64,000 nucleotides of DNA, from NCBI GenBank assembly GCA_028712475.1, contig JAQTQB010000007.1, forward strand, positions 1-64,000, written 5' to 3'. Source of the stretch: Verrucomicrobiales bacterium. Its GTDB lineage: Bacteria > Verrucomicrobiota > Verrucomicrobiia > Limisphaerales > UBA11358. The translations under genes and the position numbers were made by a program. Shown here in pieces: positions 52,436-56,654 of the stretch (its first letter is position 1; every line of letters begins with the position of its first letter). The notes under the pieces were generated by a model. It was not told the origin of the DNA, did not search any database, and saw only the letters and a list, made by a program, of their open reading frames with translations.

Positions 52436-53470
52436 ATGGCAAAAGTCAAAGTCGCCGTCCTCGGCACCGGCTCGCTCGGTCAACATCACGCCCGCATCTA
52501 CTCCGAACTCCACGCCGCCGGCCAGGTGGAACTCACCGGCATTTACGATGCGCACGCCGAAACCGCCCGCAAAATCGCGGAGAAACACCAGTTGCGCGTC
52601 TTTGCTTCCATCGCCGAGGCTGCCGCCGCCAGCGATGCGCTGAACATCGTCACGCCCACCACGACGCATTTTGACATCGCCAAACAACTGCTCGCGCAGG
52701 GCAAACACGTCCTCGTTGAGAAACCGATGACCGACAATTCCGAGCAGGCCGCCGAGCTTTGCGAACTCGCGCAGAAAAAGAACTGCGTTCTGCAAGTCGG
52801 CCACGTTGAGCGGTTCAATCCCGTTTTTAAATTTCTCCAAGAGGTTGCCACCCAGCCGCGCTTTATTGAATGCCATCGCCTCTCGCCCTTCCCTGCCCGC
52901 TCGACGGACATCGGCGTGGTGCTGGATTTGATGATCCACGATCTCGACGTGATTCTCGCGTTCGTAAAATCGCCCGTGACCAGCATCGACGCCGTAGGCA
53001 TTCCCGTGTTGAGCAAGAGCGAGGACATCGCCAACGTGCGCCTGCGCTTCGCCAACGGCTGCGTGGCCAACCTCACCGCCAGCCGCGTCAGCCCGGAGCG
53101 GATGCGCAAAATCCGCGTCTTCAGCGGCCCGACTAATCCCTGCTACATCTCGCTCGATTATCGCGTGCAGGAAGGCTTTATCTACCGCGTCGCCCGCGAC
53201 GGCGAGGAAGAGAGTTCGCTGCTGAAAAAAATCATGGCCGCCAAGCTCGGCATCGGTAAGGACTCCGCCATCGTCAGCCAGTTTGCCGGCAAAAAAATCG
53301 TGCGCGAACCCGTGCCGATCACCAAGGACGAACCGCTCAAGCTCGAACTGCAACATTTCGTCGAATGTGTCCACCAGAAGCAAACCCCGATGGTCAGCGG
53401 CGAATCCGCCAAACTTGCGCTGGACCTGGCGTTTGAAATCACACGGCAGATTCAGAACCAAAAAGCCTGA
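52436..53470 (+). CDS. Gfo/Idh/MocA family oxidoreductase
   Basis: The 344-residue NAD(P)-dependent enzyme opens with VAVLGTGSLGQHHARIYSEL (Rossmann fold), LNIVTPTTTHFDIAKQLLAQGKHVLVEKPMTD (with the EKP catalytic Lys) and LQVGHVERFNPVFKFL. LMIHDLDVILAFV is the conserved site of the C-terminal domain. In several Gram-negative groups such a gene lies beside lipid A genes, and the enzyme GnnA oxidises UDP-GlcNAc for amide-linked lipid A. Here lpxB is 2 kb downstream on the same strand, separated by repeats, so that role is possible. A matching aminotransferase (GnnB) is not adjacent. Confidence 0.88.
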   Translation: MAKVKVAVLGTGSLGQHHARIYSELHAAGQVELTGIYDAHAETARKIAEKHQLRVFASIAEAAAASDALNIVTPTTTHFDIAKQLLAQGKHVLVEKPMTDNSEQAAELCELAQKKNCVLQVGHVERFNPVFKFLQEVATQPRFIECHRLSPFPARSTDIGVVLDLMIHDLDVILAFVKSPVTSIDAVGIPVLSKSEDIANVRLRFANGCVANLTASRVSPERMRKIRVFSGPTNPCYISLDYRVQEGFIYRVARDGEEESSLLKKIMAAKLGIGKDSAIVSQFAGKKIVREPVPITKDEPLKLELQHFVECVHQKQTPMVSGESAKLALDLAFEITRQIQNQKA

Positions 53471-53485
53471 CCATATTAAGTCGCA

Positions 53486-54061
53486 ATGAAAGCGTTCACC
53501 ATATTCGTTTTGCTTACAATAACAGGATTGACTTGTTTCGGTGATGACACCAATCAGATTTTTACGGGTAACTGGTCTGAAACCGTTGGTGGATTGCGCA
53601 TGCGGTTTATTGTTTCTTCAAAACAAGAAAGGGCAGATTTCTGCCGAGCGGCCGTTTATCTTGAAATGCAAAATGTTTCAAACGTCATTAATCCGATAGA
53701 GTTCAATTCAAGTTTTTCGTTGAATTGCACACTCACGAACTCAGCGGGAAATCCGCCTCCTAGCGCCATGTGTTTTGGGAGTGGTTTTGTTTGTCCGCCT
53801 TATTGGATTTACGTTCCGTTTGATTCAACCTTGAAACTGCGGGTTGATGACATGAATTCTTGGTCTGTCGGACTCAAGGGACAAACCGGCGTGTCAATGG
53901 CGGTTGGAACAGGTTGTTGGCTTGTTCCAGATAACACAACCAACGAATATTTTCTGACAGGTGTTTTCAAGGAAGAGCGAATTCGTCAACCTGAAGATCA
54001 TATCCATGCTTGGGACGGCACGATTCAATTACCAAGGGTTAAAATCCATTTTCAAAAGTAA
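53486..54061 (+). CDS. Secreted hypothetical protein, AT-richer than its neighbours
   Basis: The 191-residue protein has a signal peptide (FTIFVLLTITGLTCFG). The mature part is beta-rich with a pattern typical of small secreted sandwich proteins (IFTGNWSETVGGLRMRFIVSS, AAVYLEMQNVSNV, LKLRVDDMNSWSVGL). It has an odd number of cysteines (CRAA, LNC, MCFG, FVCPP, GCW). Its DNA is clearly less GC-rich than the flanking genes, suggesting recent transfer. It lies 15 bases after the oxidoreductase stop. The family is unknown to me. Confidence 0.5.
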   Translation: MKAFTIFVLLTITGLTCFGDDTNQIFTGNWSETVGGLRMRFIVSSKQERADFCRAAVYLEMQNVSNVINPIEFNSSFSLNCTLTNSAGNPPPSAMCFGSGFVCPPYWIYVPFDSTLKLRVDDMNSWSVGLKGQTGVSMAVGTGCWLVPDNTTNEYFLTGVFKEERIRQPEDHIHAWDGTIQLPRVKIHFQK

Positions 54062-54069
54062 CCATATAA

Positions 54070-54102
54070 TTGAAACCAAAAACCTTCATGCTCATCGCCG
54101 GT
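54070..54102 (+). repeat. Copy 1 of the lpxB 5' end
   Basis: The 33 bases match the first 33 bases of lpxB (55425-55457) with four differences, including TTG in place of the GTG start and A in place of G in the third codon. The match stops abruptly where element E2 begins (CTTTAGCCGCGG). Confidence 0.85.
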
Positions 54103-54307
54103 GCTTTAGCCGCGGAGCTGCGCACGGCAGTAGCCCATAGCGCCAGCTATGGGAATCAATGCCATCGAATTTCACAAGCTCCGGCAGGAGCGATGGAAAT
54201 CCACCACTCAATCACCCGTTTCGTCCGCCCCGTCCGGGGCTTGAATCATTTTGGCACTCGTTCCCACGGTTGTCATCGTGGGCTACTGTCGCGCGCCACT
54301 CCGTGGC
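54103..54307. repeat. MITE-like composite of hairpins, copy E2
   Basis: The left end AGCCGCGGAGCTGCGCACGG and the right end GCGCGCCACTCCGTGGC are roughly inverted. Inside are CCCATAGC-GCCA-GCTATGGG, GCTCC-GGCA-GGAGC, GCCCC-GTCC-GGGGC and CCCACGGT-TGTC-ATCGTGGG, the same order as in E3. Confidence 0.8.
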
Positions 54308-54380
54308 AAAACAACGACAATTTGTTTTTCACATTTTTCTGTGTCTCCGCGCCTTTGCGTCTTTGCGTTGAAATAATCCC

Positions 54381-54413
54381 GTGAAACCAAAAACCTTCAT
54401 GCTCATCGCCGGT
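54381..54413 (+). repeat. Copy 2 of the lpxB 5' end
   Basis: GTGAAACCAAAAACCTTCAT and the next 13 bases match the lpxB start; upstream, CGCGCCTTTGCGTCTTTGCG also matches the sequence before the real lpxB, so about 70 bases are shared with copy 3. Confidence 0.88.
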
Positions 54414-54751
54414 GCTTTAGCTGCGGAGCAGCGCGCGGTAGTAGCCCATAGCGCCAGCTATTGGAAACCACGCCGTCGTATTTCACAAGCTCCGGCAGGA
54501 GCGGAAGAAAATTATTCCAGAGCCACGCAAATTTTCTGCCGCGCCATCCGGCGCTTAAAAATTTTGGTGCCTTGTTCCCATGGCGCCAGCTATGGGTCTG
54601 GCCACCCGCAAATTTCCAAAGCCCCGGCAGGGACGGCAGAAAGCCACCGTTCAACAACCCATTTCTTCCGCCCCATCAGGGGCTTGAATTATTTTGGCAC
54701 TCGTTCCCACGGTTGTCACCGTGGGCCACTATCGCGCGCTGCTCCGCAGCT
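54414..54751. repeat. MITE-like composite of hairpins, copy E3
   Basis: The left terminal AGCTGCGGAGCAGCGCGCGG is an almost perfect inverted repeat of the right terminal CGCGCGCTGCTCCGCAGCT. It contains seven internal hairpins of the CCCATAGC, GCTCC, GCCCC and CCCACGG types. The terminal repeats and the lack of genes are as in miniature transposable elements. Confidence 0.85.
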
Positions 54752-54814
54752 TCAAATCTCGCACGCGCACGGTTGCCGCGAAATTGAACACCGACAATTA
54801 ACCACACGAAAGAC

Positions 54815-55267
54815 ATGGCGCACACGTTCACCCATTTGCTGACGCACATCATATTCAGCACGAAAGACCGGCTGCCATTGCTGGACGCGGATTTGAAATC
54901 GCGTCTTTTTCCGTATCTCGGCGGCATCATCCGCGCGCACGACGGCAAGTCGCTCATCATCAACGGCCCGGCGGATCACGTCCACATTCTGGCATCGCTC
55001 GCGGCTAAACATTCTTTGTCCGATTTGATGCGTGAATTAAAAGCGGATTCGTCCGGCTGGATCCATAAAAGTTTTCCAAACCAAAAAGAATTCGCGTGGC
55101 AAATCGGTTATGGCGCGTTCAGCGTAAGCCATTCCAATTTGGTCGAGGTTGAAAAATACATCGCCAACCAGGAGGAGCATCATCGGAAGGTTTCGTTTCA
55201 AGAGGAATTTGTGGCCTTCCTCAAGCGACATGAAATTGAATATGACGAAAGGTTTTTGTGGGAATGA
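54815..55267 (+). mobile_element. Y1 (HUH) transposase, IS200/IS605-like or REP-associated
   Basis: The 150-residue protein has HIIFSTKDRLPLL, the HUH motif His55-Val-His57 in NGPADHVHILASL, QIGYGAFSVS and the catalytic Tyr115 in EVEKYIANQEEHHRKVSFQEEF. The gene is whole. It is flanked by MITE-like hairpin elements E3 (upstream) and E4 (downstream) and by copies of the lpxB start, so it may mobilise these palindromic repeats, as known for RAYT enzymes and REP sequences. No TnpB is present. Confidence 0.88.
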
Positions 55268-55269
55268 AA

Positions 55270-55363
55270 TTTCTTTCGCCCCTGCCGGGGCTTCGGTTTT
55301 TGTTGAATACTTTCCCACAGCTATCGCTGTGGGCTACTATCGTGCGCCACTCCGTGGCTAAAA
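55270..55363. repeat. MITE-like element E4, right half
   Basis: GCCCC-TGCC-GGGGC, CCCACAGC-TATC-GCTGTGGG and the right end GCGCCACTCCGTGGC repeat the right half of E2. The left half is absent or replaced by the transposase gene. Confidence 0.75.
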
Positions 55364-55424
55364 CGACGGCAACGCGTTTTCATAATTGCTTCGCGCCTTT
55401 GCGTCTTTGCGTTAAAACAAGCTC

Positions 55425-56654
55425 GTGAAACCGAAAACCTTCATGCTCATCGCCGGCGAGGCGAGCGGGGATTTGCTCGCGGCGGAACTGGTGGCCGCAC
55501 TGCGTGAGCAATCCGCCATCCTCCATCCTCCATCCTCGCCGCAGTTCTTCGGCGCGGGCGGCCCGAAGATGTCCGCCGCCGGCGTGGATCTGGCTTTCGA
55601 CATGACGCAGCACTCGGTCATCGGCATCACGGACGTGCTGAAAAATATTTTGAAGTTCCGGCGGCTGTTCAACCAACTGCTCGCGCTGGCGATTGAGCGC
55701 AAACCGGACGTGGTCATCGGGGTAGATTACGGCGGGTTCAACCTGCGCTTCGGCCAGGCGGTCAAAGCCTACATCCGCGACAATCCGTTCTCGAAATGGA
55801 ATCCGAAGATCGTCCAGTTCGTTTCGCCACAGGTCTGGGCGTCGCGTCCGGGCCGCGCGGACAAGCTGGCGCGCGATTATGATCTGCTGTTGAGCATTTT
55901 CCCGTTCGAGAAAGCCTGGTATGCGCAGCGCGTGCCGCAGTTGCGCGTGGAATTTGTCGGACATCCGATGATCGGGAGATTTGCGAATGACGATCTGCTT
56001 TCAACGCGACGCGCATCGGAAGCTCGTAGCAGCCGAGGTGACGAGGCTCAAACCAAAGACAAGTTAGAGACTCCTCACGTCGTCTCCTACGAGCCAAAGA
56101 TTTTATTGCTGCCCGGCAGCCGTAAGAGCGAATTGCAACGGCATTTGCCAGTGATGCTGGCGGCGCTGAAAACGATTCAAGAAAAACTGCCGGCGGCGAA
56201 GGCGAAAATAGTTTTGCCAAATCCAGCGCTGATGCAACTGGCGAAATCACCCGGTGCGAATGTAGAAATCCAAATCGGCGAACTGCCGTGGGCCTTGGCC
56301 GAGACGGATGTCGCCCTCGCCTCGACGGGCACGGTGACGATGGAGTGCGCGTTCTTCGGCGTGCCGACGGTGACGCTCTACAAAACCTCGTGGCTCACCT
56401 ACCAGATCGCCCGGCGCATCATCACGGTAAAGTCGCTGACGATGCCGAACCTGCTGGCAGGCGAGACGGTTTATCCTGAATTCGTCCAGAAGGACGCCAC
56501 GCCGGAGAATCTTTCGCGCGCGGCGCTGGAGCTGTTGCAGGACGAATCGCGCCGGGCGAAAATCAAGGCGCAGCTTGGCAAAATCATTGCCTCGCTCGGC
56601 GAACCCGGCGCGGCGGGACGCGCGGCGGAAGCGGTGTTAAGTTTGTTTCCATGA
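55425..56654 (+). CDS. lpxB: Lipid-A-disaccharide synthase
   Basis: LpxB joins UDP-diacylglucosamine and lipid X in lipid A synthesis at the inner membrane. The GTG start gives MKPKTFMLIAGEASGDLLAAELVAAL. IGVDYGGFNLRFGQAVK, YYVSPQVWAS-like FVSPQVWASRPGRADKLA, LSIFPFEKAWYA, VEFVGHP and LLLPGSRKSELQRHLPVML follow, then TGTVTMECAFFGVPTVTLYKTSWLTY. The 409 residues include two in-frame repeat inserts: LHPPSSP coded at 55516-55536 and RSSRGDEAQTKDKLETPHVV coded by an inverted repeat at 56022-56094. The 33-base start is copied twice upstream. Confidence 0.95.
   Translation: MKPKTFMLIAGEASGDLLAAELVAALREQSAILHPPSSPQFFGAGGPKMSAAGVDLAFDMTQHSVIGITDVLKNILKFRRLFNQLLALAIERKPDVVIGVDYGGFNLRFGQAVKAYIRDNPFSKWNPKIVQFVSPQVWASRPGRADKLARDYDLLLSIFPFEKAWYAQRVPQLRVEFVGHPMIGRFANDDLLSTRRASEARSSRGDEAQTKDKLETPHVVSYEPKILLLPGSRKSELQRHLPVMLAALKTIQEKLPAAKAKIVLPNPALMQLAKSPGANVEIQIGELPWALAETDVALASTGTVTMECAFFGVPTVTLYKTSWLTYQIARRIITVKSLTMPNLLAGETVYPEFVQKDATPENLSRAALELLQDESRRAKIKAQLGKIIASLGEPGAAGRAAEAVLSLFP
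55516..55536. repeat. CCATCCT tract, three perfect units, inside lpxB
   Basis: Three exact 7-bp units make 21 bases, that is seven codons, so the insert leaves the frame unchanged. It encodes part of ILHPPSSPQF. Confidence 0.9.
56022..56094. repeat. Inverted repeat, GTAGCAGCCGAGG family, in frame inside lpxB
   Basis: The left arm GCTCGTAGCAGCCGAGGTGA and the right arm CGTCGTCTCCTACGAGC are near complements. The 73-bp hairpin is read through in the lpxB frame and encodes a charged loop. Intergenic relatives are at 14779, 16483 and 29886. Confidence 0.85.

Follow-up and report, generated by a model that had tools for sequence, protein, structure and literature searches.

The window, a 64,000-nt stretch of DNA from a Verrucomicrobiales bacterium, carries between a predicted oxidoreductase gene (idh) and lpxB a series of small features among which the start of lpxB recurs. 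The features, with the two border genes, are as follows.

52436..53470, forward strand: Gfo/Idh/MocA oxidoreductase gene ('idh'), left border of the hot spot (Pfam PF01408, E 1e-29)
53486..54061, forward strand: 191-aa ORF between idh and the first lpxB-start copy (no family match)
54070..54101, forward strand: lpxB-start stub 1, TTG (30/32 nt identical to the live start)
54102..54320, forward strand: REP-like hairpin element without transposase (inverted repeats; right edge approximate)
54345..54380, forward strand: CTTTGCG-heptamer repeat before stub 2 (sequence repeat)
54381..54412, forward strand: lpxB-start stub 2, GTG (31/32 nt identical to the live start)
54413..54754, forward strand: REP-like hairpin element left of the transposase (edges approximate)
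54815..55267, forward strand: Y1/IS200-type transposase gene, 150 aa (Pfam PF01797, Y1_Tnp, E 3e-24; NCBIfam NF033573, transpos_IS200, over cut-off)
55270..55362, forward strand: REP-like hairpin element right of the transposase (repeat family D1)
55389..55424, forward strand: CTTTGCG-heptamer repeat before live lpxB (sequence repeat)
55425..56654, forward strand: live lpxB, 409 aa, GTG start (Pfam PF02684, E 5e-74)

The first 32 nt of lpxB (GTGAAACCGAAAACCTTCATGCTCATCGCCGG, 55425-55456) recur at 54070-54101 (copy 1, two differences) and at 54381-54412 (copy 2, one difference), and three copies of this 32-nt start are far beyond chance. The first-pass annotation had placed lpxB starts at 54070, 54381 and 55425, and sequence alignment bore this out, as it did the upstream sequence claimed to be common to copies 2 and 3: these share 68 nt at 91% (54345-54412 and 55389-55456), including about 36 nt upstream of the start. 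It was likewise right that both upstream copies stop where a hairpin element begins. Copies 1 and 2 end at one shared junction, where ATCGCCGG meets TGCTTTAGC (GCCGG followed directly by TGCTTTAGC), with the REP-like element beyond, and they stay alike and in register into that element (129 nt at 90%, 54071-54199 and 54382-54510). A single junction common to both stubs makes it most likely that they go back to one structure that amplified. The repeated insertion that had been proposed for this locus is therefore not favoured, since both the junction and the sequence beyond it are common to the two stubs, and one insertion followed by amplification fits better.

The upstream part shared by copies 2 and 3 is the CTTTGCG-heptamer repeat, which is dispersed elsewhere in the genome. 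Its full palindromic form lies between two genes at G000:C9:393375-393455 (L003:1450-1530; G000 is the genome of the window), and further copies are found on contigs C12 and C17. The heptamer was considered as the cause of the lpxB copies and rejected, because it is dispersed and also precedes lpxB in relatives that have no cassette (G002). A second type of hairpin (GAGACTCCTCACGTCGTCTCCTAC) lies in frame within lpxB itself (window 56014-56090, RRASEARSSRGDEAQTKDKLETPHVVSYEP); it is also present in G004, G016, G020 and G023, and is absent from many relatives. The 191-aa ORF may have short flanks of its own (window 53471-54075), with TGACCATATTAAG behind idh and TAACCATATAATTG before stub 1, and has distant homologues in five other genomes.

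We compared the idh-lpxB region in 49 genomes of the genus, in which the window corresponds to G000:C18. The idh stop and the lpxB start touch or overlap in eight of them (G011, G022, G023, G031, G032, G034, G059 and G060), and by comparison with these empty sites the 191-aa ORF is a further insertion. Elsewhere in the genus, non-empty regions are filled with up to several kb. Truncated extra copies of the lpxB start, which break off after about 30, 46 or 60 nt, were seen in at least 13 of the 49 genomes (G000, G004, G008, G009, G015, G025, G026, G027, G028, G061, G066, G069 and G071), and G003 has a decayed copy. On this sequence comparison, the idh/lpxB junction is an insertion hot spot across the genus. 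The window's stub/element junction is also present in G026, G028 and G071, and in G027 with one base changed. Because these relatives were assembled separately, an assembly artefact is very unlikely. A plain tandem duplication of the lpxB start is, together with such an artefact, a reading that we find scarcely credible, given this recurrence of the junction, the unrelated cargo that lies between the copies and the roughly 20 additional loci described below. What does stand of it is that the similarity of units 1 and 2, in register over 129 nt, makes one tandem step within the locus likely.

The inserts at this junction vary. In G027, G028 and G071 the IS200-like unit of the window lies between the stub and lpxB. 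Five other genomes (G004, G008, G009, G015 and G025) have a unit with a different hairpin and a transposase of REP-associated type (NCBIfam NF047646, below cut-off). In G069 and G003, a UPF0175/DUF3368 toxin-antitoxin pair lies between the lpxB-start copies, with neither hairpin nor transposase. G026 has an array of four lpxB-start units behind idh (L097:1604-4921, G026:C36), with what appear by eye to be restriction-modification genes between them; its lpxB is on another contig, so either lpxB has moved away or there has been a rearrangement. A 268-aa gene with an HNH match (EVE only below cut-off) lies between idh and the lpxB stub in G028 (L141:2050-2925) and G027 (L140:1410-2290). In G028, inverted heptamer repeats flank it immediately ahead of the start codon and just past the stop, and it looks like another small cassette.

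The window's transposase has 81-87% DNA identity to the transposases found at the same locus in other genomes, about equal to the values for idh and lpxB. All three have thus diverged to the same degree from genome to genome, which gives no hint of recent jumps; the transposase is either an old resident or travels together with its neighbours.

Could the hairpin or IS200-type element itself have transposed into the 5′ end of lpxB, repeatedly or with template copying of the gene start? The element begins exactly at the end of both stubs, a Y1 transposase is present in the window, and repeats flank two other transposase genes: for one of the three others in this genome the flanking repeat is 90 nt long and comes from an epimerase gene's 3′ end, and outside the genus (L086) a 62-nt gene-start repeat surrounds a related transposase. 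The dispersed copies of the hairpin element tell against it. The stretch 54102..54320 plus flank has 36 BLAST matches in the genome, and among 15 hairpin copies elsewhere none has a flanking low-copy repeat of ≥30 nt, by which transposition of the hairpin is largely refuted. The expectation that other copies of the element would also sit beside duplicated gene starts thus failed for the hairpins (0/15) and was borne out for only one of three transposases. Moreover, the toxin-antitoxin inserts, from which the Y1 transposase is absent, show the same pattern as the hairpin/transposase insert, according to PMC2817692 the IS200/IS605 family does not produce larger target duplications, and the equal divergence of transposase, idh and lpxB gives no evidence of recent jumps. 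We therefore hold this reading to be very improbable. Of the earlier proposal of insertion into the lpxB 5′ end, it remains that DNA went in and that one good lpxB was left, but the hairpin element as the cause is not supported, given the unflanked dispersed copies and the G069 and G003 inserts. Template copying is not needed either, since stub and live copies at other loci differ as separate alleles do, mostly at third codon positions. The hairpin/transposase unit is best explained as cargo and not as the engine.

The pattern extends beyond lpxB. In 1,664 kb (1.66 Mb) of this genome we looked for direct repeats of low copy number, 30-140 nt long and 0.3-3.5 kb apart; genes were called by simple rules, and gene names other than lpxB were read by us from the sequence. 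The scan returned 46 repeats, 27 of them at a gene terminus by an automatic rule. Five of the 27 were dropped because they were internal protein repeats, had doubtful frames or were doubles, leaving about 20 further gene-end cases besides lpxB. Homing specific to lpxB was rejected, as these other genes of the same genome show the pattern. The same search of 300 kb of Escherichia coli K-12 found no repeats, where about eight would be expected at the same rate. Besides this one, the few controls comprised 400 kb from further genomes in the order; the 120 kb of it that came from one genus member contained no such repeats.

Copies of gene starts were found for LysR, mtnA, rnr, lpxB, a 302-aa gene and possibly ruvB, and copies of gene 3′ ends for purL, purQ, purC, purD, guaA, murA, sufB, hisF, ahcY, moxR and others. 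The stubs, by which we mean the second copy of a gene end across the cassette, are 30-105 nt long, and the inserts are mostly 0.5-1.5 kb (2.6-2.8 kb at ruvB and luxR). The cargo is in many cases a toxin-antitoxin module or a REP/IS200-type transposase; by Pfam it includes PIN, PIN_3, DUF5615 (with DUF433), ParE with Unstab_antitox, BrnT, HicA, HicB, DUF2283 and RibD_C, and some inserts match no recognised family. Three carry Y1/REP-type transposases; most cases have no transposase. At G000:C9:669701-671022, three copies of the end of a glycosyltransferase-like gene lie 565 and 697 nt apart, with no difference over 60 nt; this looks like the youngest array found.

Two properties of these repeats bear on how they arose. 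The first is where they end. With the offset left unlimited, 15 of 17 gene-end repeats stop within 10 nt of the stop codon, and the others at 22 and 42 nt. (An earlier count of 20/21 within 10 nt was dropped as circular, the offset having been limited beforehand.) The gene-start case at C17:38846 extends 44 nt outside its gene. The second is how the copies differ. Mismatches between stub and live gene fall at codon positions 1, 2 and 3 in the numbers 20, 25 and 68, a third-position bias with p = 5e-9 against equal thirds and p = 0.005 against 0.475, our rough expectation for one live and one dying copy. The purL pair, which is outside this sum, adds 2/1/12, and ten lpxB pairs give 4/6/17; the window's own lpxB stubs, with one or two differences, are too short for this test. 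The sufB stub has 11 differences from the live copy and encodes an unchanged 32-aa end, with no close relative to tell which copy is native, and the stubs of purQ and purD each run on into an in-frame tail and stop of their own. Among the repeats, those with 94-100% identity have too few differences to distinguish alleles from copies. Taken together, most stub/live pairs would appear to be different alleles joined by recombination, and not a fresh duplication with one dying copy.

A rival reading is insertion with a long target duplication, in which a staggered cut of tens of bases is filled in so that the target is copied on both sides, and later recombination between strains makes the copies diverge. 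Selection would then keep only insertions in which the copied stretch covers the gene end, so that the core gene survives. Long variable direct repeats around small selfish modules without a transposase are known from Helicobacter restriction-modification genes, and the 94-100% identical repeats, the private bases shared by the two purL ends of G016 (see below) and the reach of C17:38846 to 44 nt beyond its gene all suit such a process. However, target duplication predicts repeats with random ends outside the gene, and the observed edges lie at stop or start codons. A dying copy should also change at all codon positions, whereas the bias is to the third, by eye also between the stubs of two genomes. 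As the differences are allele-like and mainly at the third position, they argue against duplication with one dying copy, and we regard this reading as unlikely overall, albeit one to be taken seriously.

Empty and filled sites at purL, and a mixed case at lpxB, suggest where stubs come from. The purL site is empty in G012 and filled in G016, and downstream of the G016 stub comes the same gene as downstream of purL in G012 (77% over 280 aligned nt; G008 is alike by eye). The G016 stub is therefore in its native place. The two purL ends of G016 share private bases and are 98% alike, and this sequence comparison points to a true duplicate or to gene conversion. In G069, by comparison, the lpxB stub matches the G031 allele at 29 of 30 positions, while idh and live lpxB are closest to G007; this stub arrived with the cassette. 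An assignment of G069 as a native stub beside a foreign live gene proved wrong on the same matches. Both outcomes, a native and a foreign stub, are expected if gene-end/cassette/gene-end structures are exchanged by recombination within the repeats.

The purL site has been used by different cassettes, in G000 and G067, in G016 and G005, and in G026. G000 and G067 have a common BrnTA cassette junction, and the sequence after the stub differs between them. The use of the same purL and lpxB sites by several cassettes, and a geometry like that of islands that restore a gene 3′ end, would suit site-specific integration by an integrase that acts from elsewhere in the genome and uses gene ends as attachment sites. 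Yet no integrase was present among the cargo ORFs examined, about 20 unrelated sequences in one genome would have to serve as targets, and stub length varies at a single site (about 30, 46 or 60 nt at lpxB). This makes such integration very unlikely.

We consider it probable that the lpxB stubs exemplify a genome-wide pattern: homologous recombination moves small foreign cassettes at the ends of core genes and leaves the core gene intact. In these structures a cassette (a toxin-antitoxin module, a REP/IS200-type transposase unit or, in some cases, a single gene) adjoins a core gene immediately at its start or stop codon. Incoming DNA carrying the cassette with its own allele of the gene end would recombine by homology with the resident gene, which is left whole, and one of the two gene ends would be stranded as a stub beyond the cassette. 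The far side would first be joined illegitimately, by homology-facilitated illegitimate recombination. The resulting gene-end/cassette/gene-end structure could then spread, be exchanged, amplify in tandem or be cleanly lost through its repeats. Since the same core-gene end is present in nearly every relative, such a structure can move by ordinary homologous recombination, and selection would account for the fact that all observed insertions leave both neighbours whole. In the window, one such structure was probably amplified once, giving units 54070-54380 and 54381-55424.

A homologous anchor on one side was present in every case, with the core gene itself as the shared stretch. The genome has a ComEC match. 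It has no match to the Ku gene (PF02735) at 98% completeness, and end joining by Ku was rejected on that ground. Two observations count against recombination of this kind. The purL cassettes end 0-24 nt from the toxin-antitoxin stop codon, which is tidier than random illegitimate joins would give, and the private bases of the G016 purL ends fit a true duplication or gene conversion. It is also conceivable, if rather doubtful, that we are looking at a dedicated mobility strategy, in which each selfish module bears a duplicate of some core-gene terminus that serves as its address label, and homologous recombination, aided by a cellular or module-encoded factor, inserts and removes such modules at that gene harmlessly in any relative.

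How toxin-antitoxin modules and other small genes without a transposase move between genomes is an old open question. The footprint described here (a gene-end stub, an edge at the start or stop codon, and third-position differences) can be read from sequence and makes a recombination route testable in any genome collection. The pattern would also explain how insertions survive in tightly packed operons of important genes such as lpxB and purL. Our search of the literature, of incomplete coverage, found no report of gene-end stubs at core genes, and four known systems come close in part.

The window's cargo, in which hairpin repeats enclose a Y1 transposase and other copies of the hairpin are dispersed, resembles the REP-associated and IS200/IS605 tyrosine transposases (PMC2817692), as does the tendency of close homologues to keep to one locus. 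However, that family is without larger target duplications, the dispersed copies here have none, and the lpxB copies are left unexplained by it. As far as the descriptions in PMC1643837 and PMC3031569 go, the insertion with long target duplication of Helicobacter pylori (Nobusato et al. 2000) likewise places one to a few, often selfish, toxin/antidote-like genes between long variable direct repeats without a transposase, with an empty site in a relative (here eight genomes at lpxB, and G012 against G016 at purL). In contrast to that description, the repeats here run up to a core gene's start or stop codon and are mostly allele-like and not exact target copies, the cargo consists of toxin-antitoxin modules and REP-type transposases, and the host belongs to the Verrucomicrobiota.

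There is also a likeness to homology-facilitated illegitimate recombination (PMC3240628), which needs a homology anchor on one side of the incoming DNA and none on the other, and accounts for foreign DNA beside a partly replaced gene. It is known mainly from selection experiments, where it is rare, whereas we propose a recurrent natural route with later spread by homology on both sides. The same process has also been suggested as the origin of type VI secretion effector/immunity arrays and of orphan Rhs ends (PMC5361080), where, much as here, the constant part of a gene anchors a new module, the old end is pushed downstream and arrays of old ends build up. In those systems the anchoring gene is itself the toxin, whereas here the address would be any housekeeping gene, unrelated to the cassette.
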